Shown piece by piece: positions 2,941 to 31,473 of a stretch of 64,000 bases of DNA. Made by a program: the position numbers and the translations under genes. How positions within the stretch are numbered: position 1 is the first letter of the stretch; each line of letters opens with the position of its first letter. Source of the DNA: Ischnura elegans (lineage: Eukaryota; Arthropoda; Insecta; Odonata; Coenagrionidae); contig NC_060252.1 of the NCBI RefSeq assembly GCF_921293095.1, positions 81,860,866 through 81,924,865 of the forward strand, read 5' to 3'. The notes under the pieces are model-generated. The model was not told the DNA's origin and searched no databases. It saw only the letters and a program-made list of their open reading frames with translations.

Positions 2941-3274
2941 AGTAGGTGAGAAATGGGCATTCTGGGGGAGTCATTGACCCCACTCATCCCACTCCCCCGT
3001 GACCTTGAACGTCTAGACTCTCCGCCCAACCCACCCCCACAAAATCGACGAACTCGTCAAGGTTAAAGTGGGACGGGAGGTTCCGCCCAACCCACCCCCA
3101 CGAAGTCGACGAACCAATCAAGGTTCAAGTGGTGTGGGGAACCTACCATATATAAGCGAGTACAGGAGGATGCGAGCTCATTCGTCGTCACCATGAACAC
3201 CAGAACAGCCGCTCTGCAGAGACATCCCGAGGCTTGCCTTGAGAATACCAATCTCCTGATGGAGAGGCAGTCAG
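2941..3274. repeat. Left terminal inverted repeat, Polinton 1
   Basis: This matches the reverse complement of 20087-20420. The outer 278 bp appear identical; the inner 50 bp carry substitutions. Two subterminal direct repeats lie inside (starts at 3022 and 3083, period 61 bp, each beginning CCGCCCAAC). The TIR also contains a TATA box and the first codons of the gene that is complete at the right end. Confidence 0.95.
3149..3155 (+). promoter_or_regulatory. TATA box in left TIR
   Basis: TATATAAG lies 38-44 bases before the ATG at 3193. The same box is present in mirror image at 20205-20212, where it faces the intact minus-strand gene. Each end of the element therefore carries an inward-facing promoter. 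Confidence 0.6.
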
Positions 3275-5610: not shown

Positions 5611-5659
5611 CGGTGAGGACGACGGTAAGACGCTGTGATGCAACCTCGAAAAGGATCGT

Positions 5660-6123: not shown

Positions 6124-6396
6124 TGCATTCACTTTAGCTTTGAAAATTCCTTCTTTAAATTTATTATCATTTTCTCACGTCAGCCACCTGCTCCAGCGTT
6201 CATAGTCTGTTCACCTCAAGTTCACCTTCAAGCATGTCTTCGCTCCGAGCAAAGCGCCTCCACCCATTAGCCTTGAACTTTTCCCACATCACGTTGCATA
6301 CACCAGCCTCCTTGGAGAGCGAATCAAGTCTTAACTGGATGATGTACCCACACTCCATCTCTCCAGAAATTTTTATTTTTTAACATCGGATGCGTT

Positions 6397-6404
6397 TATA
6401 AATA
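6397..6404 (+). promoter_or_regulatory. TATA box for main plus-strand transcript
   Basis: TATAAATA lies upstream of a noncoding stretch that ends at a splice donor, AG|GTAAGC (intron starting 6613). It is the nearest promoter-like sequence to the long plus-strand gene block. Confidence 0.55.
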
Positions 6405-6429
6405 CAGCAGCGTTTCCAAAGGAAAGTAC

Positions 6430-6612
6430 AGTTCTGATTTTTAACGATTAGCGTGCAGATCATAGTTCTTCATCTCCTTGCTTCTCAAGAGAAACGTTGT
6501 TCTCTATGTTCACGCTACTTGTGTCACACATCAGTACCGCATTTTGTAGCAGAGTGCACCATTTTGCTTCTTGGTCCAGTACCTATTCTTCAGTCTCTTC
6601 GCACTACTAGAG
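6430..6612 (+). other. Candidate shared 5' leader exon with donor at 6613
   Basis: This exon is inferred from the TATA box and the donor. Acceptors preceded by pyrimidine-rich or U-rich sequence lie just before four downstream ATGs: 6864 (ATG 6891), 7222 (ATG 7262), 11283 (ATG 11304) and 11613 (ATG 11622). Alternative splicing of one leader to these sites would give separate mRNAs for both BC-box-like proteins, the polymerase and the ATPase. Confidence 0.45.
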
Positions 6613-6890
6613 GTAAGCAATTATGAAGTCGTTACGTTTATTATGTATTCAACAAATTACAGACAGTATAATATATTTTGCAGAAATGAAAACGAATTTT
6701 GCACTTCCTTTAAGCTGTAGCCAAATTTCACATAATATTCTCTTGATGAATAACATTAAATTGATCTTGAAATATTACTTAAATGTTCTTCCCATTCAGA
6801 TATATATATTAATTGAGAAAGAAATAGTAAACACATTTTGATATGTTTTACTTTTCCATTGCAGTAAACTTAAAAAAGATCACATTTACA

Positions 6891-7175
6891 ATGAATACAT
6901 TGTTTCATTTATGCTTGGAAAAAATATCGAAAGTTATTGTTAGACAATCATATAGTATCACAAACAATGAAGATACACAAGGATATGTTTTTCATAGAGT
7001 AGTACAGAACAATACAGATAATATCATTATGATTTTTTGCCAGTCTTTACCAAGACATATATTCAATCTAGTGACATATCATGTTATTTTGGAGGAAGAA
7101 GCATATTTATTCGAAATGGGTTTTGATTGTGACAATGATCGTTATGAACACAACCATCAATTTCCATATATTTAG
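6891..7175 (+). CDS. Small BC-box-like protein (94 aa)
   Basis: The product begins MNTLFHLCLEKISKVIV. Residues TLFHLCLEKI fit the Elongin-BC-binding BC-box pattern (S/T)-L-x3-C-x3-(A/I/L/V) found in SOCS/VHL-box substrate receptors of Cullin-RING ubiquitin ligases. A SLPRHIF segment follows near residue 52. The rest is unrecognised. I chose ATG 6891 over the in-frame ATG at 6843 because a splice acceptor (TTTTCCATTGCAG, ending 6864) lies between them and because the BC-box then sits at the very N-terminus, as in the gene at 11304. Function is inferred from a short motif only. Confidence 0.55.
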   Translation: MNTLFHLCLEKISKVIVRQSYSITNNEDTQGYVFHRVVQNNTDNIIMIFCQSLPRHIFNLVTYHVILEEEAYLFEMGFDCDNDRYEHNHQFPYI

Positions 7176-7261
7176 AAAGTTATACTCATCAGTTATAATA
7201 TATAGCAATATTCTTATTTCAGGCTGTTTCACATTCAAACATACCTAAACGCAAACAAAAA

Positions 7262-10200
7262 ATGTCAACCAATCAAGAAATTTTTAATCAATTTAATTCT
7301 GGTTTCTTCCATTCAATTGAGGAATTAATTCAAGCGCATAATGATATTCACAATAATGTAATATTTAATAATGATTCTATAGATGATAAAATAACTTATC
7401 AAAATATGAAAAACTTAATAGATAATTTTAAAAACAGACAATATTGTAGAACTTGCGAAGAGTATTATTGCTTAAGTGATGAATTACCGCACGATAACAC
7501 AACCAACCATATACACAATCTTACTCAATCGTTAAACAATGAGGAAATTCTTAATTATTTTCAAGCTGGGGTCTATAATACGGAAGAAGAAATTGAGTTT
7601 GCCTTAACACGCATAAATGAAAGAATAATTTTTGAAAACGATGTAATTAATGATTTGGAAACTTTCAGAAATTTAAAAGCTAGATTAGACATTTTGAAAG
7701 GTCGACGATATTGTACTTATTGTGAAACCTTCTACAGCATTGATGAGGCTATGCCTCATGAGAACACCAATGAGCATAGGCATTATGTTACAGTTCAACT
7801 TGGTAGAGGTTTTAATCAAATACAATCCGCAATTCGGTCCAGACTTAAAACGTTTTGGATAACACCAGAGCAAAATAGCAGTATAGATGTTATTTCATTT
7901 CTAAACGATATTAAACAAAAATTATTTGAAAAACTTAACGAAGGAGTTATTGAAAACAATTCAATTAAATTTAATTTGGTGTTAATCTGTAAATTTCGTA
8001 AGAATGAAAAGGAAGAACTTGACACGGCATTTAAAACACCTAATACACGTGTTTTACTTATCGATATGATTGATGAAATAATAGATGAAGCGTTTTCCAA
8101 AATACTAAAGGAAAAATCTGAATTCCAAGCCAAAGGCTCTGGTTGGTCACTTTCTGAAGTGATTGGTTTGGAATTACGCATTAATAAATATAATCCACTT
8201 CGCGGATCTACATATATTGAATTACCGGCTAAAATAAAAAATACTAAATCAGTTGTAAATGTAAAGAATAATGATCGTTATTGTTTTAAGTATGCTATTT
8301 GGTCCAAAAACATTATAGATCATCCAAATCTTGTTTGGAATTACAATAATAATGAATTTCGAAACGCATATAATTGGGATTGTATCAAGTATCCGGTTGA
8401 TCCAAAGGACATCATCAAGTTTGAGAGGATGAATAATATTTCAATTAATCTCTTTGGTTTAGATGAAAAGAACAATGTGTATCCAATGAAAATAGTTGAT
8501 GAAGAATTAGATGATCATCGTGATTTGCTATACATCACAAACGATAAGACAGGACATTATTGCTGGGTTAAAAATTTCAATAAATTGATTAAATCGCAAA
8601 TTACAAAACATCACCACAGTATAAGTATTTGCAAACGTTGCTTTATACATTTTAGGGATATGACAAAATTTATGGAACATAAAGCTCTCTGTAAGGGAAC
8701 AGGTGTGCCTAGTAAAGTTATAATGCCAGATGAAGAAAACAAAATTTTAAAATTTACAAATTTGAATCGTTTTTTTCGCATACCCTATGTAATCTATGCA
8801 GACTTTGAATGTCTTTTAAAGGATGTTAGCACTTGTAATCCTTCACCAAAGGAATCCTTTACGAATGTTATTCAAACGCATGAACCATTTAGTTTCTGTT
8901 ATATGTTAGTTACACCAGATGGTTGTCAAAAACCGATTTTATATCGAGGACCATATGCAGCACGAGTATTCATTAACAGAATAAAAGACGAAGCAGTGAA
9001 AATTTATGAAATATATAAGAACACTATCCCAATAAATCCGCTGACTGAGGAAGAAGAAAGTATATTTCTTACCTCAGTGAATTGTCACATTTGTGAGAAA
9101 GAGTTAGGTAAAGATAGGGTCAAAGATCATGACCATTTGACAGGAAGGTATCGCGGTCCAGCACATAAACTATGTAACTTAAAGTATAAAATGCCAGACT
9201 TTTTACCCATATTTATACACAATTTGTCAGCCTACGATGGTCATTTCATTGTACGTGAGCTAGCCTATGATGAGAGAGAAATATTTGTAATACCAAGCAC
9301 TGAGGAAAAATACATTTCTTTTGCAAAAAAAATAGAAAAAAAATTTAAAATTCGATTCGTTGATACGTTTCGATTTATGTCTGCATCATTAGCTACACTT
9401 GTATCTAACTTGAGAAAATTTAAATTCACAAATGAAATATTTGGTGATTTAGCTCATATAATTACGCGAAAAGGTGTATATCCATATGATTACACCAATT
9501 GTGTTGAGAGACTTGATGATTGTTTTCTACCGAGTAAAGAAAAATTTTATAACAGATTAACTGATGAATGTATATCAGACGATGATTACACACATGCATT
9601 GAATGTATGGTCTTCCTTTAAGTGTAAAACGCTAGGTGATTATAGTGATGTATACCTAAAAAGTGACGTAACTCTTCTTGCAGATGTCTTTGAAAACTTT
9701 AGAAACATATGTATTGACACATATAAACTTGATCCATCATGGTACTATACTACTCCAGGCTTAAGTTTCGACGCAATGCTAAAGTATACAGACATCGAAT
9801 TGGAACTTTTAACTGATTATGATATGTTGTTTATGATTGAGAAAGGTATTCGAGGTGGAATATCACAGTGTTCTAAAAGATACTGCGAGGCTAACAATAG
9901 GTATATGACTAATTTTAAATCTGATTGTGAATCTAATTATTTAATATACCTAGATGCTAATAACTTGTATGGATGGGCATTGTCAAGACCACTTCCTCAC
10001 TCAAAGTTTAGGTGGTTAACTGACAAGGAAATAAATAATCTGATCGTTAAAAACATTCCAGATGATAGTCAAGTGGGATACATTTTAGAGGTTGATTTGT
10101 CATATCCAGATTCTCTTCATGATAATCATAATGATCTACCTCTTTGTCCGGAAAACAAAATTCCTCCCGGTGGAAAGCATAAAAAACTTTTAACAACACT

Positions 10201-11194
10201 AGAAAATAAAACTAAATATATAATTCATTATGTAAACCTTAAGCAGGCTCTTTCCCTAGGCATGAAACTCCTTAAAGTACATCGAGTAATTGAATTCAAT
10301 CAATCACCGTGGTTAAAGTCATATATTGATCTAAATACTGAAAAAAGAAAATCAGCATCCAACGATTTTGACAGAGATTTTTACAAATTGCTTTCTAATG
10401 CAATATACGGGAAAATGATGGAAGATGTTAGAAAAAGAATTCGATTAGAATTAGTAACAAGCGAAAAAAGATTAGATAAACTAATATCAAAATCTGAATT
10501 TTTGGATCGAACAATCTTTAGTAAGTCACTGGCAGCAGTTCACCTCAGAAGGACAAGCATTAAAATGAACAAACCAATTTCTACTGGATTTAGTGTATTA
10601 GAATTAAGTAAGACGTTGATGTATAATTTTCATTATCATGAAATGCTACCCAAATATGATAAAAACATCAAGTTATCTTACATGGATACTGACAGCTTTA
10701 TTTACGAAATAAAAACAGATGATGTATATAAAAATATACTAGAAAATTTAGAATCTTTCGATACGTCAAACTATTCCAAAGATCATCCTTGTTACTCAAT
10801 AATAAATAAAAAGGTGTTGGGGAAATTTAAAGATGAATGTGATGGAAATATTATGACTCATTTTATTGGTCTCAGAAGTAAACTTTATTCTTTCAAGGTT
10901 GACGGGAGTAAGGAGAAAAAGAAAGCTAAAGGTATAACAAAATGTGTAATAAATAAATGCTTATCTTTTAATGATTATTCAAAATGTTTATACGAAAATT
11001 TGACAGAATTTCGAAAAATGAACGTAATTAGAAGTAGGAAACATAAGATATTTACATTAGAAATGAATAAAGTCGCTTTAAACCCATTTGATGATAAAAG
11101 ATACATCTGTGAGGATGGTATCAATACTCTTGCTTGGGGGCATTATAGAATTCCTCAAAAACGTACACATGATGAGGCGTTTGGTAACACTTGA
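7262..11194 (+). CDS. POLB: Protein-primed family B DNA polymerase (pPolB)
   Basis: This 1310-aa enzyme replicates the element. Two Cys2-His zinc-finger-like repeats lie at about 62-85 (C62, C65, H77, H83) and 151-174. A third CxxC...HxxxC module is at 457-477. The 3'-5' exonuclease motifs are DFE (514-516), NLSAYDG (654-660) and YLKSDVTLLAD (798-808). Polymerase motifs are A, DANNLYGWA (898-906); B, NAIYGK (1046-1051); and C, MDTDS with D1142 and D1144. Between ExoI and ExoII is an endonuclease-VII-like zinc module (C608, C611, DHDH 622-625, H635, C638), known from Polinton polymerases. All catalytic residues are present. A splice acceptor ends at 7222, 40 bases before the ATG. The gene is more AT-rich than the capsid genes downstream. 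Its homolog in Polinton 2 is broken. Confidence 0.97.
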   Translation: MSTNQEIFNQFNSGFFHSIEELIQAHNDIHNNVIFNNDSIDDKITYQNMKNLIDNFKNRQYCRTCEEYYCLSDELPHDNTTNHIHNLTQSLNNEEILNYFQAGVYNTEEEIEFALTRINERIIFENDVINDLETFRNLKARLDILKGRRYCTYCETFYSIDEAMPHENTNEHRHYVTVQLGRGFNQIQSAIRSRLKTFWITPEQNSSIDVISFLNDIKQKLFEKLNEGVIENNSIKFNLVLICKFRKNEKEELDTAFKTPNTRVLLIDMIDEIIDEAFSKILKEKSEFQAKGSGWSLSEVIGLELRINKYNPLRGSTYIELPAKIKNTKSVVNVKNNDRYCFKYAIWSKNIIDHPNLVWNYNNNEFRNAYNWDCIKYPVDPKDIIKFERMNNISINLFGLDEKNNVYPMKIVDEELDDHRDLLYITNDKTGHYCWVKNFNKLIKSQITKHHHSISICKRCFIHFRDMTKFMEHKALCKGTGVPSKVIMPDEENKILKFTNLNRFFRIPYVIYADFECLLKDVSTCNPSPKESFTNVIQTHEPFSFCYMLVTPDGCQKPILYRGPYAARVFINRIKDEAVKIYEIYKNTIPINPLTEEEESIFLTSVNCHICEKELGKDRVKDHDHLTGRYRGPAHKLCNLKYKMPDFLPIFIHNLSAYDGHFIVRELAYDEREIFVIPSTEEKYISFAKKIEKKFKIRFVDTFRFMSASLATLVSNLRKFKFTNEIFGDLAHIITRKGVYPYDYTNCVERLDDCFLPSKEKFYNRLTDECISDDDYTHALNVWSSFKCKTLGDYSDVYLKSDVTLLADVFENFRNICIDTYKLDPSWYYTTPGLSFDAMLKYTDIELELLTDYDMLFMIEKGIRGGISQCSKRYCEANNRYMTNFKSDCESNYLIYLDANNLYGWALSRPLPHSKFRWLTDKEINNLIVKNIPDDSQVGYILEVDLSYPDSLHDNHNDLPLCPENKIPPGGKHKKLLTTLENKTKYIIHYVNLKQALSLGMKLLKVHRVIEFNQSPWLKSYIDLNTEKRKSASNDFDRDFYKLLSNAIYGKMMEDVRKRIRLELVTSEKRLDKLISKSEFLDRTIFSKSLAAVHLRRTSIKMNKPISTGFSVLELSKTLMYNFHYHEMLPKYDKNIKLSYMDTDSFIYEIKTDDVYKNILENLESFDTSNYSKDHPCYSIINKKVLGKFKDECDGNIMTHFIGLRSKLYSFKVDGSKEKKKAKGITKCVINKCLSFNDYSKCLYENLTEFRKMNVIRSRKHKIFTLEMNKVALNPFDDKRYICEDGINTLAWGHYRIPQKRTHDEAFGNT

Positions 11195-11303
11195 AATTGA
11201 TAGAACTAGTTTAAATATGATAAAAACATTTTTGTGTTACTTATAACATCATCATGTGTAATTTTTTTACTTTTTATTTTCAGTATTAACACACACGCAC
11301 ACA

Positions 11304-11543
11304 ATGAATAGCAATAATCCAAAAACCTTGTATCACCTCTGCATCGAATATATTTGTAATAATATATTCGATGTAGCATATAAAAGGATAATGGAGAGTG
11401 ACGAACCTATCGTGCGTCATCGCATTAAACCGAATGTTCAATGTCAAATTGAAACGGTAATGTGCGATGACGTATATCAGAGTTTACCAAACGAGGTATA
11501 TTTCGATTTAGAGGACGTCGCTCTAAGAAATTTTCGATATTAA
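11304..11543 (+). CDS. Small BC-box-like protein (79 aa)
   Basis: The protein begins MNSNNPKTLYHLCIEYI. TLYHLCIEYI fits the Elongin-BC BC-box pattern and resembles the start of the protein at 6891. Downstream is a SLPNEV segment (about residue 60) and no further recognised domain. The start is preceded by a strong splice acceptor (T-rich tract then CAG, ending 11283), 20 bases before the ATG. It sits between the polymerase and the packaging ATPase. A role in recruiting a host Cullin E3 ligase is inference; the short length also allows an unrelated helical protein. Confidence 0.55.
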   Translation: MNSNNPKTLYHLCIEYICNNIFDVAYKRIMESDEPIVRHRIKPNVQCQIETVMCDDVYQSLPNEVYFDLEDVALRNFRY

Positions 11544-11621
11544 TCAATATTTTGACTTTTTTTTTCTTCGTAAAAGTTTTATAAATGATAAAAAAGTAAT
11601 AAAAAATTTCCAGTGTTAATC

Positions 11622-12263
11622 ATGACGTTAACATGGAAACATCCTTTTACATGCATTTGTGCAGGTCCGTCAGGATGTGGGAAGACCACATTCGTAACAA
11701 GGTTTTTAGAGAACTTGAACTATATGTTAGATAGTCCCATACGTAAGATAATTTGGTGCTGTGCTCCAGGAAGTGAGCCTAAAATTCGATTACCTGTTCA
11801 CTTTTTCTCCGAAATACCACCTTTTGAAGAATTTGGTGGCAATCCAACATTATACATAATCGATGACTTGATGAGCGAGGGAGCCTACAGCAAAGATGTG
11901 TGTAAATTATTCACCAGAGGTTCACATCACTTTAACATTTCAGTGTTTTTGATCACGCAGAATATTTTCTATCAGAGCCCACAATCGAGAAATATATCAT
12001 TGAATACAAAGTATATTGTCGCGTTCAAAAACCCCAGAGATAAGTTACAATTTGGTCATTTAGCTAGGCAGGTCTATCCGGAAAAATCGGGGGAATTGGA
12101 GAGGGTATATAAGCAAGTTACGCAAGAACCATTCGGTTATTTGGTTCTAGATCTTGGTCAGGACACGGACGACAGATTCCGCTTTAGAACCAAAATTTTT
12201 CCCCAAGACGGGGCCACTGTCATTTACATGCCCCAACGCGATGAAAAGATTGAAGAACAATAA
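11622..12263 (+). CDS. ATP: A32-type genome-packaging ATPase (FtsK/HerA superfamily)
   Basis: The 213-aa protein has a P-loop GPSGCGKT at residues 15-22 and a Walker B strand TLYIIDD at 76-82. The downstream ITQNIF segment fits the sensor/Q motif of this family. It is the putative motor that packages Polinton DNA into capsids. The ATG at 11622 is preceded by a splice acceptor (AATTTCCAG, ending 11613), and an upstream GTG in frame is ignored. The 3' end overlaps the next gene (12241) by 23 bases. The Polinton 2 counterpart is at 40706-41344, with closely similar motifs. Confidence 0.93.
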   Translation: MTLTWKHPFTCICAGPSGCGKTTFVTRFLENLNYMLDSPIRKIIWCCAPGSEPKIRLPVHFFSEIPPFEEFGGNPTLYIIDDLMSEGAYSKDVCKLFTRGSHHFNISVFLITQNIFYQSPQSRNISLNTKYIVAFKNPRDKLQFGHLARQVYPEKSGELERVYKQVTQEPFGYLVLDLGQDTDDRFRFRTKIFPQDGATVIYMPQRDEKIEEQ

Positions 12264-12567
12264 ACACTTGCTCCACGTCCTAAAGTCTGCAAAGCCTAAA
12301 TTACGTACTGCCATATTGAATAGCTCGGACGAGGAGTTGATTAAAACAATTTGCGATTGTTGCCTCAATACTCTAAACGGAAATCATAAGATCGATAAGC
12401 GATTGAAACGAAAATTATCCAAGCATCGTAACACACTGAGAAAGTTGGTTGAACGGGGGACGAGTGTAAAAAGAAAACGAGCGCTTCTCGTACAAAAAGG
12501 AGGCTTTTTGCCATTACTACTGGGTTCGATTTTAAGCGGTGTGATCGGTAGCCTGCTGGGAAAATGA
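12241..12567 (+). CDS. Small basic protein with hydrophobic C-terminal QKGGFLP tail
   Basis: The 108-aa product is Lys/Arg-rich with a paired CDCC motif (about residues 40-43) and ends in a glycine-rich hydrophobic segment, FLPLLLGSILSGVIGSLLGK. The homolog in Polinton 2 (41365) has the same order but a frameshift. The junction QKGG|F resembles a viral cysteine-protease site, and the tail looks membrane-active. I suggest a minor virion protein processed by the adenain-like protease; this is inference. The start at 12241 overlaps the ATPase gene. The stop overlaps the next start as ATGA (12564-12567). Confidence 0.7.
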   Translation: MKRLKNNKHLLHVLKSAKPKLRTAILNSSDEELIKTICDCCLNTLNGNHKIDKRLKRKLSKHRNTLRKLVERGTSVKRKRALLVQKGGFLPLLLGSILSGVIGSLLGK

Positions 12568-13103
12568 GTTTGCATAAAATGCTCGTAGTGAGTCCCGAAG
12601 TCTTTGATCGAAGTCGTGCAAAGGCTAGGCTGAGTAAATTGGATAAGGAAATGAAACTTGTGTTAGCGAGTAAAAGGCTCAAGGATATTGACAAGTGGCA
12701 TTTGTATAAAAGGATACTCGATAAATATCTCGACTCAGTGTCAGACTTTAAATCCCCCATACACGTTCCAATAGTGAAACACACACCACCAACACAAGTA
12801 GTTGAGGGTAGCAATGCAATGAGAAGGCGGTTAGACGAAATTAAGAGGACAAATTCAGAGTTAGATTCGACATGGGCACGAATAAAGGAACAAATCGAAA
12901 GCGATTCTCCACCGAAAAAAATGAAGCGGATAATAGCAACTCCAAGAGAGCCAAGCACACCTCCAAGGGAGCCAAGCACACCTCCAAGGGCGCAAAGAAT
13001 ATCTCCAAAGGAGCGATGGACATCTCCGAGATCAATTCCAAGGCGAAGCAAGCGAAAAAGGGTACCAAAAATGTTCGGGGAAGAGTGGGACACGACGTAT
13101 TAG
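12564..13103 (+). CDS. Conserved Polinton protein with LDKEM helical domain and S/T-P tail
   Basis: The 179-aa protein has an N-terminal helical module, LSKLDKEMKLVL...DKWHLYKRILDKYL (about 24-57), followed by a charged linker and a tail rich in TPPRE and SP repeats plus an Arg/Lys cluster. The homolog in Polinton 2 (41708) carries the helical module twice. The S/T-P sites look like proline-directed kinase targets and the basic stretch like a nuclear localisation signal. The function of this family is not known to me. The start overlaps the preceding stop. The last 232 bases overlap the integrase frame if its longest start is used. Confidence 0.75.
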   Translation: MSLHKMLVVSPEVFDRSRAKARLSKLDKEMKLVLASKRLKDIDKWHLYKRILDKYLDSVSDFKSPIHVPIVKHTPPTQVVEGSNAMRRRLDEIKRTNSELDSTWARIKEQIESDSPPKKMKRIIATPREPSTPPREPSTPPRAQRISPKERWTSPRSIPRRSKRKRVPKMFGEEWDTTY

Positions 13104-14137
13104 CTAGCGTGTACAACAATCCCGCACATCCTGCTGGTTTTTCCACAGAACACAAATTAAATAAAGCGACTGGGATCCCGATAAAAACAATTCGCGAGTG
13201 GTTGGAATCTCAAGAAGCGTACACGCGTCACAAGCCGGCGAGAAAAAAGTTTGTTAGAAACCGTTACGAAGTAAACTACATAGATGAGTGTTGGCAATGT
13301 GATTTAAATGATTTGAGAAGTTTGAAAAAATACAACAATGGGTTCTGTTACATTTTAACCGTAATAGACATATTTTCCCGCTATGCGTGGGCAAGTCCTC
13401 TCAAGTCAAAAAGACCAGAGGAAATTATAGAAGCATTTAAGGTCATATTTCGCGAACGCAAACCATTGAAAATTCAGAGCGATAAGGGAGGGGAATTTGT
13501 TAATAGCAAGTTTAAAAGTTTTCTCTCGAATCAAGGAGTAAAGTTTTACACTACTAATAATCCCGAAATTAAGGCTAGCCTCGTGGAACGCTTTAATAGA
13601 ACTCTCAAGACAAAAATGTATAAATATTTTACAAAATACGCAACTTATAAATATATCGATGTGCTTCAGAAACTCATTAGATCATATAATGATAGCAGCC
13701 ATTCACGTATCGGGGTAGCTCCATCTCAAGTGAATGCAAAAAATGCATTTGTCATTGTCAGTCGGAGAAAAAGCTTAAGAAAGGTGAATGTAACATTCAA
13801 TAAGGATGATTACGTGAGAATCAGCAAAGAGAGGCTTCCGTTCGCCAAAGGATACACACCAAATTATACTAAGGAGATATTTCAAGTTTCAAACATTGAT
13901 CGAGCAAAACCAATACCGACGTATGAATTGAAAGATTTGAACGGGGAGGATATAAAAGGAGGTTTCTATGCAGAGGAATTAGTAAAAGTCAACGTGTCTC
14001 CCGACACGGAGTACAGGATTGAGAAAATTTTGAGACGTCGGGGGAGTGGTTCTAATTTAGAGTACTTTATCAAGTGGGACGGATACCCATCGTCTTTTAA
14101 CTCGTGGATTCGTGCTTCTTCCGTTCATAAGGTATGA
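12872..14137 (+). CDS. INT: Retrovirus-type DDE integrase with chromodomain
   Basis: The 421-aa protein has the rve catalytic core with D144 (WQCDLN), D204 (QSDKGGEF) and E239 (VERFN), a D-x34-E spacing. A C-terminal chromodomain follows (about 375-420: YRIEKIL...EYFIKWDGY...SW), expected to tether integration to chromatin marks. It inserts the element and produces the 6-bp duplication. The start is uncertain: 12872 gives a Lys-rich low-complexity N-terminus overlapping the upstream gene in another frame, and ATG 13016 is an alternative. Alignment to the Polinton 2 integrase begins only near residue 74. All catalytic residues are intact. Confidence 0.95.
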   Translation: MGTNKGTNRKRFSTEKNEADNSNSKRAKHTSKGAKHTSKGAKNISKGAMDISEINSKAKQAKKGTKNVRGRVGHDVLASVYNNPAHPAGFSTEHKLNKATGIPIKTIREWLESQEAYTRHKPARKKFVRNRYEVNYIDECWQCDLNDLRSLKKYNNGFCYILTVIDIFSRYAWASPLKSKRPEEIIEAFKVIFRERKPLKIQSDKGGEFVNSKFKSFLSNQGVKFYTTNNPEIKASLVERFNRTLKTKMYKYFTKYATYKYIDVLQKLIRSYNDSSHSRIGVAPSQVNAKNAFVIVSRRKSLRKVNVTFNKDDYVRISKERLPFAKGYTPNYTKEIFQVSNIDRAKPIPTYELKDLNGEDIKGGFYAEELVKVNVSPDTEYRIEKILRRRGSGSNLEYFIKWDGYPSSFNSWIRASSVHKV

Positions 14138-15219
14138 ATGAATTTTATCTCACACTCCCCAGCGACAGCTCGAGGGATTTTTTCCCGAGAAATACGATAG
14201 CTCATTATCGTACAAAGTTGAGTCATCGCATCGATTTAGACAATAACGAGTGGTATGTAGGTCTTGCTGAGATTTCCATTCCATCTATTGAGGTAAATAA
14301 AGCCCCCGAAGATACACCTGCTGAAATTTCTATTCCTCCTATTGAGGTAAAAAAAGCTCCCGAAGACACACCTACCGTTATCGATAACTTTACCCCAGCT
14401 TCTCGCGGAGCAGACGAATTGACTCCTAAGGATAATAGGACCCGGACTGAAGAGGGATTAGTTCGAGGGGATAAAGAAGTTATAAATGTGAAACTTCAAG
14501 ATGATTCATACTTTACAATTCCCATTGGTACTTATGACAGCATTGCGGTGGCATTTGCAAGGCCATACATTGCCTCCAGCGCACGAAAACAAACTTACAT
14601 TTCAAATGAAGTAATGCGCTATATTGATAGATTGAGTGTAAGGATTAATCAGGTTGGAGTTGATGAACGCATATTACCACGGTCTGTGCAAATTTCAGCG
14701 AGCGGAGTAAAATACTCATTGTCTCCAGGAACGTATGAATCGTTTACCAGCTTATTCAATAGAACTTTGTCAGGCTTTAGTGGAAAAGGCAAGGAAAAGA
14801 TAAAAAATGACCTATTGTTATTATCAGCTGTTCTTATTAGATTATCATTTAAAGATTCAACGTTGACAGATGATGAGCTAGCTGAAATCGTTGATGGGGC
14901 AAGAGCAGAGATTAGCGCTAAGGATAATATAGGAAAAAGAGAAAAAAGAGGTATTACAAACTCCTCAAAAAATCTTTACGTTTACACAGATATAGTGAAA
15001 CCTCAACTAGTCGGAGACACTGTGAGTCGTTGCATCCGCATCTTGAATTCGAAAATTGGAGAATATCAAACATTCAACCCTATTTACTATTACCCCGTCG
15101 AGAAAAACAATATCGAGAGTGTGGAAATTCTATTGAGTGATAAACTCGGAGAAGCGATTTCTTTTCATAGTGGGGAGCAAAGCTCTATAGTGGTGTTACA
15201 CTTTATAAAAAAGAATTGA
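14134..15219 (+). CDS. Minor capsid protein (penton-like, mCP)
   Basis: The protein (361 aa) begins MNEFYLTLPSDSSRDFFPRN, the characteristic start of the Polinton minor capsid (single-jelly-roll, penton) family, and ends with a conserved block DIVKPQLVGDTVSRCIRILN followed by PIYYYPVEKN. It is expected to occupy the capsid vertices. Compared with the 233-aa homolog in Polinton 2 it has a long central insertion. An 18-residue segment ending in KAPEDTP is duplicated (DNA repeat starts 14266 and 14320, 54 bp apart). The ATG overlaps the end of the integrase gene by four bases. The family assignment is from recalled sequence patterns, not a search. Confidence 0.8.
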   Translation: MNEFYLTLPSDSSRDFFPRNTIAHYRTKLSHRIDLDNNEWYVGLAEISIPSIEVNKAPEDTPAEISIPPIEVKKAPEDTPTVIDNFTPASRGADELTPKDNRTRTEEGLVRGDKEVINVKLQDDSYFTIPIGTYDSIAVAFARPYIASSARKQTYISNEVMRYIDRLSVRINQVGVDERILPRSVQISASGVKYSLSPGTYESFTSLFNRTLSGFSGKGKEKIKNDLLLLSAVLIRLSFKDSTLTDDELAEIVDGARAEISAKDNIGKREKRGITNSSKNLYVYTDIVKPQLVGDTVSRCIRILNSKIGEYQTFNPIYYYPVEKNNIESVEILLSDKLGEAISFHSGEQSSIVVLHFIKKN

Positions 15220-15248
15220 TTTACATTAGTGCATCATTTTACGACGAG

Positions 15249-15698
15249 ATGGCACCGACGATGGATCGATATTACAGCTATTATTCCAAGCAGGTGGGGG
15301 GAGAGATTGGGCCTTTGTATAGAGCCTCTTTTAGGGTGCAAAAGGGGAGGGGTATCGGGAGTTTCCTCGCTGGTCTCTGGCGATTCGCGAAACCTTTGCT
15401 TTTTAGTGGGCTTAAGACTGTTGGTAAGGAAGCCGCGAGCGCTGGGGCAGCAGCTCTCGGAGACCTTGGAACGAAACCGGTTAAGGAGATACTGCGCAGT
15501 AGAATAAACGAGGCTGGTCAGAACTTGAAACGAAAGGCTGAGGAAAAGATAAAAGGCATGTCTGGAGGCGGGTTGAGAATCGCGAAACGTCCAAGGCTTA
15601 ATAAAATAAAACATAGCGGTGGACGTAAAAAGCAACAGTCATCGAGAAGGCGAGGAGGAAAGAAGGTCGCTGGAGGAGGAGATATCTTTTCACGATAA
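15249..15698 (+). CDS. Basic virion core protein, adenovirus pX-like
   Basis: The 149-aa protein has a Tyr-rich N-terminus, a QVGGEIGPLY junction, an amphipathic GRGIGSFLAGLWRFAKPLL segment, a helical KEILRSRI...NLKRKAEEKI region and an Arg/Lys/Gly-rich tail. This layout matches the small pX-like core proteins of Polintons and adintoviruses. MSGG|GLRIAKRPR fits the adenain consensus (M/I/L)-x-G-G or (M/I/L)-x-G-x|G and precedes the basic tail. Likely roles are DNA condensation and membrane disruption after cleavage. I chose ATG 15249; an upstream TTG frame is ignored. The stop overlaps the ATG of the major capsid gene. Confidence 0.78.
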   Translation: MAPTMDRYYSYYSKQVGGEIGPLYRASFRVQKGRGIGSFLAGLWRFAKPLLFSGLKTVGKEAASAGAAALGDLGTKPVKEILRSRINEAGQNLKRKAEEKIKGMSGGGLRIAKRPRLNKIKHSGGRKKQQSSRRRGGKKVAGGGDIFSR

Positions 15699-16981
15699 TG
15701 GCTGAGCACATGCTGTCTTCGTTGGATTTATTTCAACCCAATCCTCCCGTCCAAAATAACATCTTAGCAAAAAGACTCGTATCCTATAAGCCCATTTCTT
15801 CGCTAGATAATCGGTCTGTCATAGAATTCCTTATCAAAGACTCTGGGGATGCGTACAAGGATTTGAATAGCATATATCTAAGACTTAAAGTGAAACTTTG
15901 TAAAAAAGACGGGAATGATTACGCTAGTTCTGACACGAATCAGCCAGGAGTAGTTAACAATATTTTGCACTCTCTCTTCGAACAGTGTAACGTTTATTTC
16001 AATGGGACGTTGGTCACTCCGTCGGAGGATAATTACCATTATAGGAGCTACTTGGAAAATTCTTTGAATTATGGTACTGATGCGAGCAGAACACATTTGC
16101 GAAATGTGGGTTGGGAACTGGATACGGGGGATGACATCAATAAGACAGATGCCTCAAATGCAGGTTTTAGCAAGCGTAAGGAGTGGTTCAATAATAGTGC
16201 CGAGGTAGAGTTGTATGGTAAATTGCATGTTGATGTATTCAATCAATCCGAACTGATGCTGGATCGAGTGGATATCGGTATAAGACTATTGTTATCTAAT
16301 CATGCTTTTTATCTTATGGGCGGAGATGGGCTATTGAAGATTTTAGACGCAACTTTATACGTTCAACATTTCGATATCAACCCATCCATTTTAGTTGCAC
16401 ACAATAAAATTTTAGCCAGTAATAATGCGAAATATCACTACAAACGTACCGAGTTGAAAACTTTTACCGTTCCTTCCGGTGGGCGAACTTTGAGCCTCGA
16501 CAATGCAATCGTGGGTCGAATACCTAATACAATTATTTTTGCAATGGTGGATAATGAAGCTTACGCTGGAGGTTTGAATAAGAATCCATTTGCTCTCTCT
16601 CACTATTCGCTCGAGAATTTTTCCCTCTTTGTGAACGGTGTGCAAATTCCTTCCGAGGGATTACAATGCAATTTTTCAAGTAAAAAGTATTGGGCACGTG
16701 CGTATGATACGATATTCTCAGGCAGTGGTATTAAGCATTACAATAGAGGTAATCAAATCACTTACGACATGTTTGGACACGGTTATTTTATGCTAATTTT
16801 TGATTTAACACCTGATGATTCTGGAAACGAGAATTATATAAGTCTTGGAGATAGAGGAGTTGTGAGAATAGAAGCGAGGTTTGAGAATGAATTATCGAGA
16901 ACGGTCACGTGTTTACTTTTCTCAGAGTATGATGCAACATTGGAAATTGATAAAAACAGAAACATTATCACAAACTTTTAG
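15698..16981 (+). CDS. Major capsid protein (double jelly-roll, hexon-like)
   Basis: The 427-aa product starts with SSLDLFQPNPPVQNNI and YKPISSLDNRSVIEFLI, then VNNILHSLFEQCNVYFNG. These are the recurrent patterns of the Polinton major capsid family (related to the C. elegans F54H12.2-type transposon protein). Length is normal for the family. The double jelly-roll fold is established for Polinton capsids by published structure-based comparison; I cannot verify it here. The counterpart in Polinton 2 is at 45184-46473. The start is set by the overlap TAATG with the core protein gene and by agreement with that homolog. Confidence 0.88.
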   Translation: MAEHMLSSLDLFQPNPPVQNNILAKRLVSYKPISSLDNRSVIEFLIKDSGDAYKDLNSIYLRLKVKLCKKDGNDYASSDTNQPGVVNNILHSLFEQCNVYFNGTLVTPSEDNYHYRSYLENSLNYGTDASRTHLRNVGWELDTGDDINKTDASNAGFSKRKEWFNNSAEVELYGKLHVDVFNQSELMLDRVDIGIRLLLSNHAFYLMGGDGLLKILDATLYVQHFDINPSILVAHNKILASNNAKYHYKRTELKTFTVPSGGRTLSLDNAIVGRIPNTIIFAMVDNEAYAGGLNKNPFALSHYSLENFSLFVNGVQIPSEGLQCNFSSKKYWARAYDTIFSGSGIKHYNRGNQITYDMFGHGYFMLIFDLTPDDSGNENYISLGDRGVVRIEARFENELSRTVTCLLFSEYDATLEIDKNRNIITNF

Positions 16982-16983
16982 TC

Positions 16984-17490
16984 ATGGATGGAATTCAAAT
17001 CAACAGGTTACTAAGACCACTCAATATATTCCGTGGAGTTTACGCATCCGATAGGTTACCGAAATCACCACGAAATGGAGTTTACATAATAAATTTAGAT
17101 CCATCTACATTGCCGGGTTCACACTGGGTTGCAGTCTGTTTACACAGTCATTTGGCCGAATATTTTGATTCGTACGGTCTACCTCCTTTTATCCCAAACA
17201 TTTTAAAATTTTTAAAACCATTCTCAGTCACTTGCAATCACATTCAAATCCAAAGCTTTCGTTCGGATATTTGCGGTGAATATTGTTGTCTCTATACTGC
17301 TAGTAAATCTTTAGGTCAACCACTACACAAATTCCTTAGACACTTTCATCACACCACCCCTCATCTCAACGACTGTCGAGTCCTGAAGCTGTTTCGACAA
17401 ACCTTCAACCAGCTGAGGTGGACCAAATGTCATCCCAGGGCTCAGCGGTGCTGTTCCCGAATAAATATGATGAGCAGAAGGAGGAGGTGA
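16984..17490 (+). CDS. PRO: Adenain-like cysteine protease (maturation protease)
   Basis: This 168-aa protease resembles the adenovirus maturation protease/Ulp1 group. The putative triad is H47 (GSHWVAV), D62 (EYFDSYG) and C97 (SDICGEYC), with an oxyanion glutamine at Q90, seven residues before the cysteine as in adenain. It probably processes the core and minor virion proteins, which carry GG motifs. The C-terminus is Cys/Arg-rich. The gene follows the capsid gene after two bases and precedes the accessory block. The Polinton 2 homolog has the equivalent residues H52, D68, Q97 and C104. Confidence 0.92.
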   Translation: MDGIQINRLLRPLNIFRGVYASDRLPKSPRNGVYIINLDPSTLPGSHWVAVCLHSHLAEYFDSYGLPPFIPNILKFLKPFSVTCNHIQIQSFRSDICGEYCCLYTASKSLGQPLHKFLRHFHHTTPHLNDCRVLKLFRQTFNQLRWTKCHPRAQRCCSRINMMSRRRR

Positions 17491-17515
17491 TTATTTGAGA
17501 AGAAGCAGTCTCAGA

Positions 17516-18043
17516 ATGCAGATCGTAGTATCTATAACTTTCAACCAAGGAGGAGTGACGGAGCTTGCAGCAGTTGATGTAGATTCAAACCGTCTATTTT
17601 GGGGCAGTTTCAAGAAACATGGAAAGCTCGTGGCTGGAGGAAAGAAACTTCGTTTTGCAGACCCCCTACAACGTGATGAGACTTCCTTTAACGAGGGATT
17701 CATATCTCACGTGGAACTTTCATCCACCTTGGAAGCTTTGACTGAGGGTGCAATGGCGCTTTATGCATACACTGAAGCAGAGTGTGAGTTCCTGACCGAT
17801 CTCACGGGGCGTACTTTCATCTCTCTCGAGAAAGAATTACACTGTCCTCCTCCCGAAAAATGCTCCTTTCCTGCCTATTCCTGCCTCAATCCTTGTCACA
17901 AGTTGCGCAATAGTACCTGCGCATTGAGAGATGCACATTCATTAGCGCAATGGTTTCAGTACAACCGTCTCAAGGCGGAAGTTGATCCATGCTCTGATGA
18001 CTGTTCCCCCACCCCTCCTCCATCGTCATCCTCCTCCTCTTAA
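17516..18043 (+). CDS. Conserved accessory protein with Cys-rich C-terminus
   Basis: The 175-aa protein is related to the product of 38778-39296 in Polinton 2 (shared GGKKL, SLEKEL, CLNPCHKLRNSTCALR). A beta-rich N-terminal part with TELAAVDVDSN leads to a cysteine/histidine cluster and a helix HSLAQW. The last third echoes the protein at 18767 (C...H...CA....LA.W), suggesting a distant common RNase H-like (DEDDh exonuclease) ancestry with altered catalytic residues; this is inference. The low-complexity tail is Pro/Ser-rich. ATG 17516 is used because the upstream frame has only a TTG and because the Polinton 2 homolog aligns from here. Confidence 0.7.
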   Translation: MQIVVSITFNQGGVTELAAVDVDSNRLFWGSFKKHGKLVAGGKKLRFADPLQRDETSFNEGFISHVELSSTLEALTEGAMALYAYTEAECEFLTDLTGRTFISLEKELHCPPPEKCSFPAYSCLNPCHKLRNSTCALRDAHSLAQWFQYNRLKAEVDPCSDDCSPTPPPSSSSSS

Positions 18044-18075
18044 GCAGTTTCATTGCTTGTCATACATCAGTCGTC

Positions 18076-18639
18076 ATGCAGACGTCGGAGACATCAGGAC
18101 CTTCACCGGTGAAAAGAAAGAGGCCCGTTGAACAACCCATTTCTGCTTCATTCCACGACTTTAAGAATTTAGTGCTTCAAACTGTGTATTACTTGAACAG
18201 TGGAAAGACAAAAAGTGTGTGTATTGGATACGATCCCAGCAGTGACTTTGAATCAGTCGTGCAATTTAATCAAGTTGGAAAGAAAAGTGTGATTGTTTCA
18301 CAAAGCGAGTGGAAAAGTATCTTGAACTGTGAAAAGGATGTTGCTTTGTTCTTTTACAAAGGAGAAAAGCATTTTTTAACTTCCTGTTTGACGTATGCAA
18401 ATTACTTTGGGAAGACGCATTTGGTTATTAAAAAGACTTTTAACTTAAAGGAAGATGAGTGGTTTGCATTTGTGAAACTCTTCAAGCTAATAGATCTTTT
18501 CCTCCAGAAACTGTCGGTTGGTCGTGACAAAGTGAGACATTTTCTCGCCACCAAACTAGCAAAGAACATCACAGATTGTGATTTTGAACGACTTGAATTA
18601 GAGATGGCACTCATAACATATGGTTTGGCTGATGAATAG
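18076..18639 (+). CDS. Uncharacterised Polinton accessory protein
   Basis: This 187-aa protein starts with a basic KRKRP cluster (possible nuclear signal). It contains a SVCIGYDPSSDFESVVQFNQ beta segment, a VIVSQSEWKSIL helix and a second EWFAFVKLFKLIDLF helix. The beta-beta-EW-helix pattern recurs in the 320-aa protein of Polinton 2 at the same relative place (47045). I do not recognise a characterised family; a single-strand nucleic-acid-binding (PC4-like) fold is conceivable but unproven. It lies between two exonuclease-like accessory genes. Confidence 0.65.
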   Translation: MQTSETSGPSPVKRKRPVEQPISASFHDFKNLVLQTVYYLNSGKTKSVCIGYDPSSDFESVVQFNQVGKKSVIVSQSEWKSILNCEKDVALFFYKGEKHFLTSCLTYANYFGKTHLVIKKTFNLKEDEWFAFVKLFKLIDLFLQKLSVGRDKVRHFLATKLAKNITDCDFERLELEMALITYGLADE

Positions 18640-18766
18640 CCTGTGTGTGAGTGAAAGGCTTTTTAACCTCTGGCACGAATGAGAGTTCTGTAAGTTAGAG
18701 AGTCTTGATGTAAGTTCAACCCCTGGCATTGGGTGTAAAAACCTTGTAAGTTGAACATACATCGCG

Positions 18767-19237
18767 ATGAGCGCCATTATCGAATTTCAAGGATTCTCGG
18801 ACAGCAAAGGAGATTTTATCGTCAAGGAGTTGGCAATCATTGCTGTACAGAATAAATGTTGTAATACGTGGTTATTTAAATTACCACCGAGACTGCTTTC
18901 TACAAAAGAGACATACTGGCTGAGAAATAACTATCACGGCTTGACTGAATATTCTGGAGACGTAGATTATCAGGATTTGGAGAGCATACTGTACAACTAT
19001 ACAAAGCAGTACAAAATACTATTCACCAAGGGTGCGCAAAAGGCGTCTTACTTAACCCGTTTTCTTCCCAAGGGAATTTGTGTGGTCAATCTGGAACTTT
19101 ATGGTTGTCCCTCGTTAAAAAGATTAACTACAAATGAGGGATGTTTAATTGAAAATCATATGGATGGAAATCAGCAGTGTGCTAGAAAGAATTGTTTTAA
19201 GCTGGCTGATTGGTGTGAAAAAAATAAAGTATGTTAG
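18767..19237 (+). CDS. Exonuclease-like (DEDDh-type?) accessory protein
   Basis: The 156-aa protein has the layout IIEFQGF...FIVKELAII (residues 4-25), then LFKLPP, NYHGL, a central FTKGAQKASYL and a Cys/His end CPSLKRL...CL.EN.....CA..NC..LADW. This is an arthropod transposon-associated family. The order matches the three DEDDh exonuclease motifs, but the first acidic pair reads E-x-Q and the last D is replaced, so it may be catalytically inactive. The homolog in Polinton 2 is at 47947-48525. The 3' end overlaps the next ATG by seven bases. Confidence 0.65.
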   Translation: MSAIIEFQGFSDSKGDFIVKELAIIAVQNKCCNTWLFKLPPRLLSTKETYWLRNNYHGLTEYSGDVDYQDLESILYNYTKQYKILFTKGAQKASYLTRFLPKGICVVNLELYGCPSLKRLTTNEGCLIENHMDGNQQCARKNCFKLADWCEKNKVC

Positions 19238-19506
19238 ATTTTATAGTAAATTGTATTGTTCCGTTTCTTTTCTTGGTCACGTTTTCTTTAATCATTTACA
19301 ATTTTGTGCAAATGAGAAGGTACGATTGCATTGTGGGATATTTACTAGAGTATGATTACTTAAATGAGAGTGCTGGAGGATTGTCAGCGCTCAGACATGC
19401 TGTTCAACTATTTCAAGAACAATATAACATTAGTGGAGGTGGTGATATGAACTATGAAACTGTGAATATGGTGAATAATATAACCAACTCATCCGTGTGT
19501 GGATGA
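19231..19506 (+). CDS. Membrane-anchored matrix metalloproteinase pro-domain only
   Basis: The 91-aa protein begins with a hydrophobic segment (residues 4-24: signal anchor or signal peptide) and then follows the MMP pro-domain of the Polinton 2 metalloprotease: YLLEYDYLN, AVQLFQEQYNISG, then N...VCG at the position of the cysteine switch PRCGVVD. The frame ends directly after Cys-Gly, so the catalytic and hemopexin domains are absent. It could be the stump of a lost MMP or a functional trans-acting propeptide that binds MMP zinc through its cysteine. The switch is degenerate (SSVCG instead of PRCG). An AATAAA lies just after the stop. It overlaps the preceding gene. Confidence 0.7.
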   Translation: MLDFIVNCIVPFLFLVTFSLIIYNFVQMRRYDCIVGYLLEYDYLNESAGGLSALRHAVQLFQEQYNISGGGDMNYETVNMVNNITNSSVCG

Positions 19507-19610
19507 TTATGTAAAATTTATTGTAATAAATATCTATTTATTTTTACCTTGGTCTTTTATTTTTTGAAGGATAAATCACAACAACAATTTAAATAGTAAG
19601 TTTTTTTTAT

Positions 19611-20168
19611 TCAATAAATATCCACATCTTTCTCAAGTTTAAGTATAAACTTCATTACATGCAGACGAGTACCTATAATAGCGTCCGTGGTACTGTATCT
19701 CACTTTTGATTGTATATGGTCCGTGTAACACACAGGTTTTGCACCATCAACACAATCACTTTGAATCATTCCTCCTCCTCCTCCCTTTGCCTTTAAATGG
19801 AATTGAGGTTGGTAGCACTCGTGCACATCCAACCAGATGATCGGGCGCTGCTCTTCCGCCAGGCGTCGCTTCCCCGGATCGGTAATGTTATCCTGACTGG
19901 TTACATTAAATCTCTCCACGATCGCCCCTGCTTCATTTCGGAAGCCGGAGAAAGTCACCTTCTGTCCAACCACTTCAATTTTCTTGTTCTGATGTCGGAA
20001 TACACAACAGTACTCCGCGTTAAAAAGTACCGTGAGCACAAAATCTGTGCCCCGATGAGGGATGTAGATGATGTAAGTATCCGAATCTGACTGCCTCTCC
20101 ACCACGAGCTCAGTACCCTCAAGGTAAGCCTCGGGATGTCTATGCAGAGCGGCTGTTCTGGTGTTCAT
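19611..20168 (-). CDS. Unrecognised right-end protein; promoter and 5' end inside the TIR
   Basis: The product is a 185-aa soluble protein with no signal peptide, a beta-rich N-terminal half (TYIIYIPHRGTDFVLTVLF), a GGGGG linker and a Cys-containing C-terminal part. I do not recognise it and see no homolog in Polinton 2. A TATATAAG box at 20205-20212 sits about 40 bases upstream. The first 27 codons, the leader and the promoter lie in the right TIR, so the left TIR carries a truncated copy (3193-3303). It converges on the MMP pro-domain gene, with AATAAA signals on both strands between them. Confidence 0.75.
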   Translation of the reverse strand: MNTRTAALHRHPEAYLEGTELVVERQSDSDTYIIYIPHRGTDFVLTVLFNAEYCCVFRHQNKKIEVVGQKVTFSGFRNEAGAIVERFNVTSQDNITDPGKRRLAEEQRPIIWLDVHECYQPQFHLKAKGGGGGMIQSDCVDGAKPVCYTDHIQSKVRYSTTDAIIGTRLHVMKFILKLEKDVDIY

Positions 20169-20420
20169 GGTGACGACGAATGAGCTCGCATCCTCCTGTA
20201 CTCGCTTATATATGGTAGGTTCCCCACACCACTTGAACCTTGATTGGTTCGTCGACTTCGTGGGGGTGGGTTGGGCGGAACCTCCCGTCCCACTTTAACC
20301 TTGACGAGTTCGTCGATTTTGTGGGGGTGGGTTGGGCGGAGAGTCTAGACGTTCAAGGTCACGGGGGAGTGGGATGAGTGGGGTCAATGACTCCCCCAGA
20401 ATGCCCATTTCTCACCTACT
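20087..20420. repeat. Right terminal inverted repeat, Polinton 1
   Basis: This is the reverse complement of 2941-3274. It contains the mirror-image subterminal 61-bp repeats and the promoter and first codons of the minus-strand gene. Confidence 0.95.
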
Positions 20421-29859: not shown

Positions 29860-31473
29860 TCAATTATCGATAATATTATCCATTCGGGAAACTATAGTTT
29901 TCAAGTCATTTGCTATGCTCGATAAATCTGAAGGGTAATTCTTGGGACATGGGATACCAAAGAGATTGAGATCATTTCTTCCAGCCCTCACCATAGTGTT
30001 ATTAAATTCACTGTATTCGTAAACATCTTTCTCTCTAAAAAAGTAGAGGATCCCATTAGTATGTCTAAATGCAGATTGTATACCTGTAGGTATCTGTGGC
30101 ATTAATTTCTTGTGACGAGCTTGACTCTTCGGTCTAAAAGTGCACTCATCCATTTCAACAATGAATTCCCCACTATGAAATATTAGTGTGCGGGCAGAGT
30201 ATGTATTAACAATTGCTTGAATTCTAGCGTTTCTAGGAAGGCCGGCGGATATAATATTCATAGGACGACCTTCAACTAGCTCCATTGTTGGATAATTAAC
30301 CATGTATATCAGGCCCTTGATAAATATTACAATTTCTCCACTAGGCCTGCGATAAAGAGCATCAAAACCATTGAAATCTTGCTCAGGTAAAAATGGTAAC
30401 CAATCTGTGATAAGCTGAGGGCCAACGATGTCTATTTTTTCAGTCACTTCCATATCCACATACCAAAACCATTTTTCATGAAATAAATACAGCAAATTAT
30501 TGATTATGAGTAACTGGCGTACATTATCAAGTTCACACAAAGTCGGACGGTGAGTATTATTTTTTGCAACATTCGGTTCTGCTCTGAATCTATCCTCCGG
30601 ATATTCAGGTGCTCCCTCAGCATCATCATCGTTCCCCTGAACTGGATCATCTTCCTTCTGAGGTTCCAAGGGTGGTCCATAGAGAAATTGAGCTGCTAGT
30701 ATATCATCTTCATGTAGTGTCAGACGGTAATCATAATGGTTATAATACGCAAACATCAGAGAATTCTCATAATTCGAATGTGTAATTCCTAGAGTGTGAC
30801 CAATTTCATGGAGAAGAACGGCGAGCAAACTGACTTGAAATTCAGGAAGTTCAGGATGATCCATTCCTAAGTACCACATTTCATCTTGATCGATGTGGAT
30901 TTCTAGTGGAATATCTCGACTTGATGGTAATTGTGCATGAGCTAATTTTCCACCAATCCCATCCAAAGGCGAAGAACAAAAATGTCTATTTAAATATTGT
31001 TTATGATTGTACCGTGTATTCATTATGAAGATATCCGGATGTTTAGGATCATGCTCGAACTTTAAATTAGCTGCTTGACTCCAAATTTCAAACGCTTTCC
31101 GAGCTAACTCCATGTACGTCGAGTTCACAAATCCATAATGCCATTTTATTATACCTTTATTCCATTTGTAATGGTATACAGAAAACGCAGGATCATCAAC
31201 AACTCCGCAGCGTGGTCTATTGGTTAAATTCAGAGTCATTTCATTCAATTCCCCATCTTTTGTAATGTTATAGTATTCTTGAAAAATTTCCAAAGCCTCT
31301 TTCAATTCCGTATGGTCAATGCTAGTAATTTCATTTTCGGTCACGTTCAAATATCCATACTGTCGAAGATATTCTGCTACGCAATACGTTTTATTGGTGT
31401 GGGTATTTTCACTGGATAACACCTTTTGTACAGCAAGCTCAGTTAAGAGCAAAAAGATATAGACTGCTCTCAT
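29860..31473 (-). CDS. Matrix metalloproteinase, secreted, with hemopexin domain (Polinton-borne)
   Basis: This intronless 537-aa protein has a signal peptide (1-20), an MMP pro-domain ending in the cysteine switch PRCGVVD (87-93), and a catalytic domain with the zinc site H222-E-x2-H226-x5-H232 and Met-turn M240. An acidic linker (270-300) leads to a hemopexin domain bounded by C313 and C509. No furin site separates pro-domain and catalytic domain. MMPs cut extracellular matrix; a viral copy could help spread through basement membranes, as proposed for the MMPs of some insect DNA viruses. It lies wholly inside Polinton 2, between TIR and polymerase gene, with its own TATA box and a poly(A) signal in the TIR. 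Absence of introns suggests capture through mRNA or long viral residence. Confidence 0.95.
   Translation of the reverse strand: MRAVYIFLLLTELAVQKVLSSENTHTNKTYCVAEYLRQYGYLNVTENEITSIDHTELKEALEIFQEYYNITKDGELNEMTLNLTNRPRCGVVDDPAFSVYHYKWNKGIIKWHYGFVNSTYMELARKAFEIWSQAANLKFEHDPKHPDIFIMNTRYNHKQYLNRHFCSSPLDGIGGKLAHAQLPSSRDIPLEIHIDQDEMWYLGMDHPELPEFQVSLLAVLLHEIGHTLGITHSNYENSLMFAYYNHYDYRLTLHEDDILAAQFLYGPPLEPQKEDDPVQGNDDDAEGAPEYPEDRFRAEPNVAKNNTHRPTLCELDNVRQLLIINNLLYLFHEKWFWYVDMEVTEKIDIVGPQLITDWLPFLPEQDFNGFDALYRRPSGEIVIFIKGLIYMVNYPTMELVEGRPMNIISAGLPRNARIQAIVNTYSARTLIFHSGEFIVEMDECTFRPKSQARHKKLMPQIPTGIQSAFRHTNGILYFFREKDVYEYSEFNNTMVRAGRNDLNLFGIPCPKNYPSDLSSIANDLKTIVSRMDNIIDN

Follow-up and report, generated by a model that had tools for sequence, protein, structure and literature searches.

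Gene D and the element that carries it

The question raised by this locus is whether a short open reading frame that resembles the pro-domain of an MMP, and ends without a catalytic domain, is a gene in its own right or the remains of an MMP, and what its product might do in the former case. The window, a stretch of 64,000 nucleotides from Ischnura elegans, contains two virus-like elements, Polinton 1 (2941–20420) and Polinton 2 (29046–49055). The frame, here termed gene D, is located near the right end of Polinton 1, and Polinton 2 carries a full MMP (Table 1). Long terminal inverted repeats (TIRs) of 334 bp and an rve integrase, which are among the characteristic features of Polinton/Maverick (adintovirus-like) elements, are both present in Polinton 1. 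The names Polinton and adintovirus rest on gene content and on a deposited protein (P0013) annotated as "collagenase [Ladona dragonfly adintovirus]". PolB, capsid and protease are putative labels, assigned from motifs and gene order; PolB had no match in Pfam or PDB sequence searches, the capsid and protease frames had none in Pfam, and the capsid frame matched none of the phage records. Gene E gave no Pfam match above the cut-off, and its start falls within the right TIR. In Polinton 2, the PolB-like frame (31548–35464, minus strand) is broken between 33401 and 33524, in contrast to the intact MMP frame and several further intact frames.

Table 1. Features of gene D, of Polinton 1 and of the MMP of Polinton 2 (positions in the window).
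Feature	Position	Strand	Remarks
Left TIR of Polinton 1	2941..3274	+	
Integrase, rve and chromodomain	12872..14137	+	Pfam
Probable maturation protease	16984..17490	+	label from Polinton gene order
Gene A, function unassigned	17495..18043	+	homologue in Polinton 2 at 38757–39296
Gene B, function unassigned	18076..18639	+	
Gene C	18767..19237	+	shares ATGTTAG with the start of D
Gene D, stand-alone MMP-type pro-domain	19231..19506	+	91 aa, ATG to TGA
N-terminal hydrophobic (membrane) segment of D, ~residues 4–26	19240..19308	+	Kyte-Doolittle; extent read by eye
Pro-domain part of D, residues 32–91	19324..19503	+	homology, dN/dS
Cys33 of D	19327..19329	+	47/47 copies
Sequon N45-E-S of D	19363..19371	+	sequon in 45/47 copies
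Sequon N66-I-S of D	19426..19434	+	47/47 copies
Sequon N83-x-T of D	19477..19485	+	47/47 copies
Sequon N86-S-S of D	19486..19494	+	46/47 copies
Cys90 of D, aligned with MMP switch Cys	19498..19500	+	46/47 copies
AATAAA, possible polyadenylation signal 3' of D	19525..19530	+	read in sequence
Gene E, convergent with D	19611..20168	-	
Right TIR of Polinton 1	20087..20420	-	
Full MMP of Polinton 2	29860..31473	-	Pfam Peptidase_M10, Hemopexin, PG_binding_1

The D protein ends in SSVCG, directly followed by TGA. A first-pass annotation had described a clean stand-alone frame with a hydrophobic N-terminus and a downstream AATAAA, all of which are seen. The best 19-residue Kyte-Doolittle mean is 2.58, for the segment starting at residue 4, and RR or RQ directly follows the hydrophobic stretch. 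The four sequons of D are kept in both of the subfamilies described below, and N83 and N86 sit immediately N-terminal to Cys90. When the window copy was shuffled 20000 times, four or more sequons arose by chance in 41 cases; for another copy (L022) the figure was 80 of 20000. The overlap between C and D (ATGTTAG, 19231–19237) is present in 42 of the 47 copies analyzed and would fit translation by a stop-restart mechanism. A frameshift fusion of C and D was also considered, given an A-rich stretch 5' of the overlap, but the minus-one frame stops at once (read by eye).

Homology to MMP pro-domains

The proposed match between the 91-residue protein and the pro-domain of the Polinton 2 MMP is borne out by three comparisons. 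BLASTP aligns the two with 36% identity over 64 columns (E 2e-11); the Smith-Waterman score is 109, whereas 2000 shufflings of residues 32–91 reached 58 at most; and hhalign relates the D family to the MMP family with a probability of 98.1% (P 1e-13). By these measures, residues 33–91 of D share ancestry with the Polinton MMP pro-domain. The MMP-type features YLxEYxYLN and FQExYNI are retained. The Pfam family PG_binding_1 (PF01471) recognizes 18 of 23 D members at E values up to 1 (best 9.6e-5), the window copy not being among them, and by fold match MMP pro-domains are not separable from other peptidoglycan-binding-type domains. One alignment was set aside because it matched the C-terminal end of D to cysteines of the hemopexin domain, and its "invariant C90" is not used here. 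Cys33, which precedes helix 1, is common to the Polinton 2 MMP, P0003 and the Ladona MMP, and is absent from P0004, P0006 and P0007.

A relative of 64 residues, encoded on a 760-bp ENA contig, is 81% identical to D over 70% of the query and has the same C-terminal ending. Chance is excluded by this relative together with at least 114 places in the same genome that match D. A profile search for further short relatives returned only P0001 among 2042 candidates, a PDB sequence search with the D family gave no match, and viral contigs scanned with D, gene C and the MMP contained no relatives.

Relation to full-length MMPs

The frame of D ends at residue 91 and carries no catalytic or Ig-like domain. 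The only HExxHxxGxxH motif in the window belongs to the Polinton 2 MMP (30810, minus strand), and none is found in D. A hidden catalytic domain was sought from 19507 to the right end of Polinton 1 with 36 MMPs (P0002–P0037) and rejected; the search gave one match at chance level (E 3.6) and one alignment, with P0018 (E 0.005), that begins in D and passes the stop. Thus no remnant of a catalytic domain follows 19506, a point on which the first-pass annotation had made its reading depend. For one element of subfamily 2, the 4.8 kb at its left end were searched with the MMP set as well, and nothing scored below E 0.3; this region holds one dUTPase-like frame (by eye) and another short frame. Left ends were covered for this element and for Polinton 1.

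The genome contains at least 82 MMP stretches, some of them pieces of one copy, which range from near-identical to about 38% identity and represent several lineages; 28 are full-length, 98–100% identical and free of stops. In all nine MMP loci examined (~2.5 kb of flank each), the MMP adjoins PolB and no gene C is found in the flank, so that D does not resemble an MMP cut short in place. Among the places listed, the window holds the only D and MMP less than 40 kb apart, and this pair is split over two separate elements. C-terminal MMP pieces (residues 199–537 or 300–537, mostly with one TAG) form inverted pairs ~10–13 kb apart, in which the partner is another piece or a full MMP (for example C2:107277269 with C2:107290184, and C2:98816681 with C2:98828501). 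These pairs look as if the end of the MMP lay inside long terminal repeats.

Copies of D and selective constraint

A search of the 1.72 Gb assembly, in which the counts of D and MMP places are lower bounds, listed at least 150 matches. By hand count, 114 are D places, two are additional pieces belonging to such places, and 34 are pro-domains of MMPs. The 114 places fall into two subfamilies, ~27 resembling the window copy (72–100% identity) and 87 mostly 65–68% identical to it. In 109 of the 114 the matched stretch contains no stop; one of the 109 extends only over residues 28–69, and its second piece has a stop. Forty-seven of the at least 114 D places, including the window copy, were retrieved whole, as the 20 best and a hand-picked spread; L040 and L046, broken or partial, are left out of this number. 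Forty of the 47 are open from the ATG with no inner stop, and 46 have TGA after codon 91, a count that includes copies with inner stops or lacking the ATG. The stop of the window copy is therefore not peculiar to it.

Between the subfamilies, NG86 dN/dS was 0.159–0.314 in 25 pairs (five of 22 intact copies against five of 18). For three pairs, the bootstrap upper bounds were 0.42–0.62 over the whole frame and 0.36–0.53 over residues 32–91, where the ratio was 0.14–0.25. For residues 1–31 the ratio was 0.37–0.44 with upper bounds of 1.29–2.11; as these exceed 1, constraint is not demonstrated for the hydrophobic segment alone. YN00 gave a weaker result than NG86, 0.471 for one pair. Within subfamilies the ratio was higher (0.39–0.91 in eight pairs), as expected if young insertions drift. 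With three subfamily-2 copies, the values were 0.215–0.250 for D, 0.17–0.22 for the protease, 0.10 for A, 0.17–0.33 for B, 0.14–0.16 for C and 0.38–0.41 for E; with a closer copy (L044) they were higher, 0.51 for D and 0.18–0.85 for the other genes. Between subfamilies D thus falls within the span of the protease and A–C, and E has the highest ratio of the six genes compared.

Gene order around D is common to both subfamilies. The protease, A, B, C and E accompany D in 23 of 29 loci; in the remaining six, some genes farther from D are missing, one of the six having been retrieved from the start of D only. At the level of sequence comparison, these results show that D is maintained by purifying selection as a regular gene between C and E of a damselfly Polinton lineage; that the frame is maintained had been suspected in the first-pass annotation.

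The same annotation had named a decayed MMP stump as the alternative. Such a stump would account for the loss of PR before the CG and for the absence of catalytic and hemopexin domains, and the ratios within subfamilies would suit it. We nevertheless consider it very improbable and reject it, because the stop lies at the same place in nearly all copies over two subfamilies, dN/dS between subfamilies is below neutral and the gene order is conserved. The stop-free matched stretches in the great majority of the places listed, and the position of all nine MMPs beside PolB and none beside gene C, argue in the same direction.

The cysteine switch

The cysteine switch of MMPs has the consensus PRCG[VN]PD. 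In D the corresponding stretch reads SVCG-stop, with no PR before the CG and no residue after it. The frame had been said to end exactly at the Cys-Gly of the switch; its CG does align there, but the surrounding motif is missing and the spacing is altered. Among the 47 copies, 42 end in CG, four in CS or CE and one in YI. The distance from the helix-2 Phe to the switch Cys is 29 residues in D, compared to 25 in 27 of the 29 MMPs in which the switch could be read (20 and 26 in the other two; it was not readable in seven of the set of 36), which places Cys90 four residues too far from helix 2. An RCGxxD motif together with an MMP's own pro-domain is found in 28 of the 36 MMPs listed. The loop between helices 1 and 2, in which the activating cut of human MMPs lies, has 16 residues in D and 17–24 in 26 of 28 MMP rows, the remaining two having 16 and 14 (the latter a search artefact). 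A textbook cysteine switch is absent from the predicted protein, it is doubtful that Cys90 reaches the zinc, and glycans on N83 and N86 would hinder entry into the catalytic cleft.

Possible function of D

The reading that we favor, with a probability of roughly 0.4, is that D may be a membrane-anchored pro-domain that acts in trans, most likely by docking on MMPs of rival elements or of the host. D would be a small membrane protein of type II that passes through the secretory pathway, with its four conserved sequons outside; a secretory fate is suggested by the sequons, since they are conserved in both subfamilies and rare in shuffles. By the positive-inside rule, positively charged residues flanking a membrane segment tend to mark its cytosolic side, and the RR or RQ after the hydrophobic segment therefore favors a cytosolic C-terminus, against a type II topology. 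Through its pro-domain fold, D might dock in trans on MMP catalytic domains and retain these MMPs inside the cell or on the cell surface, docking of the fold or retention being likelier than a classical cysteine switch. The likeliest targets would be the secreted MMPs of other Polinton lineages, present in dozens of copies in the same genome, or host MMPs. Possible targets do exist in the MMP stretches of the genome, and among the places listed D and MMPs lie in different elements. The short loop between helices 1 and 2 and the stand-alone propeptide inhibitors of other protease classes (see below) also speak for this reading; the position of SUB1-ProM beside subtilisin-like genes, which has no parallel in D, speaks against it. 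The more specific proposal, that D is a natural membrane-anchored antagonist by which MMP-less Polintons act in trans on MMP-bearing rivals or on host MMPs, is tentative and on balance doubtful.

The old pro-domain fold could also have been put to structural use, D serving as a minor glycosylated component of virions or of the infected-cell membrane, with a putative Cys33–Cys90 disulfide. The location of D after the protease-like frame, A, B and C, its 7-base overlap with C, and the conservation of both cysteines and the sequons are consistent with such a role. We regard it as a strong competitor of the favored reading, although less probable; against it, a mere scaffold would hardly seem to require YLxEYxYLN and FQExYNI, both of which are retained, and the disulfide is a guess. 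Nearly as strong a competitor is a function without any contact with MMPs, in which the anchored pro-domain would bind other membrane proteins and retain them in the ER, be they receptors or channels of the host or proteins brought in by incoming elements; its hydrophobic N-terminus and missing inhibitory motif recall MMP-23 as portrayed in PMC4272770. Against this, the searches connected D with pro-domains of Polinton-type MMPs and with a single short protein. Finally, D could help rather than hinder, as a chaperone or membrane tether for the MMP zymogens of other elements or of the host. According to PMC6993865, propeptides assist the folding of most subtilases, which for MMPs is an analogy; as the MMPs concerned mostly bring their own pro-domain with RCGxxD, this role appears quite improbable. 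Docking in trans on MMPs thus remains the preferred reading.

Comparison with known systems

The closest counterparts of D are the pro-domains of Polinton/adintovirus MMPs (PF01471; Polinton 2, P0003 and the Ladona protein P0013), which resemble it in residues 33–91 and in having sequons; several of them also share the Cys before helix 1. Compared to these MMPs, D lacks catalytic and hemopexin domains and has a longer hydrophobic N-terminus, an incomplete switch with a spacing four residues longer, and a short loop between helices 1 and 2. That MMPs of this kind had been noticed before is evident from the deposited Ladona protein. No adintovirus title dealing with an odonate element with an MMP was present among the matches listed, and no MMP term occurred in the adintovirus texts searched. 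TIMPs would be like D in blocking MMPs in trans, if the favored reading is right; their fold and mechanism are unrelated to D.

MMP-23 is described in PMC4272770 as a membrane-anchored MMP whose pro-domain lacks an inhibitory sequence and may regulate the surface expression of Kv1.3, with which it may interact. By this description D and the MMP-23 pro-domain share the lack of an inhibitory sequence and membrane anchorage, which for D is predicted from hydropathy; however, MMP-23 retains its catalytic domain and D has none.

Protease propeptides made as separate proteins are known from other classes of protease. Stand-alone propeptide-like inhibitors are reported of cysteine proteases (cathepsins; PMC4089206) and of the malaria subtilase SUB1, the latter being SUB1-ProM, which adjoins subtilisin-like genes (PMC6993865). 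Like CTLA-2alpha, crammer and BCPI (MEROPS I29) and SUB1-ProM, D is a protease-propeptide homologue encoded by a conserved gene of its own. Those proteins act on other protease classes and their inhibition has been measured, whereas the role of D is read here from its sequence; D differs further in its hydrophobic N-terminus, its virus-like carrier element and the lack of a cognate protease beside it. Stand-alone propeptides are thus known for cysteine and serine proteases, and none was found for MMPs in the protein search (proteins of ~50–159 residues) or among the open-licence literature matches listed. Should D act in trans, nature would have provided an MMP blocker encoded by a gene, and virus-like elements sharing a genome would be seen to be in conflict through a protease and its antiprotease. 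In the other case, D still is a clear example of the safety domain of a zymogen that has become a gene in its own right.
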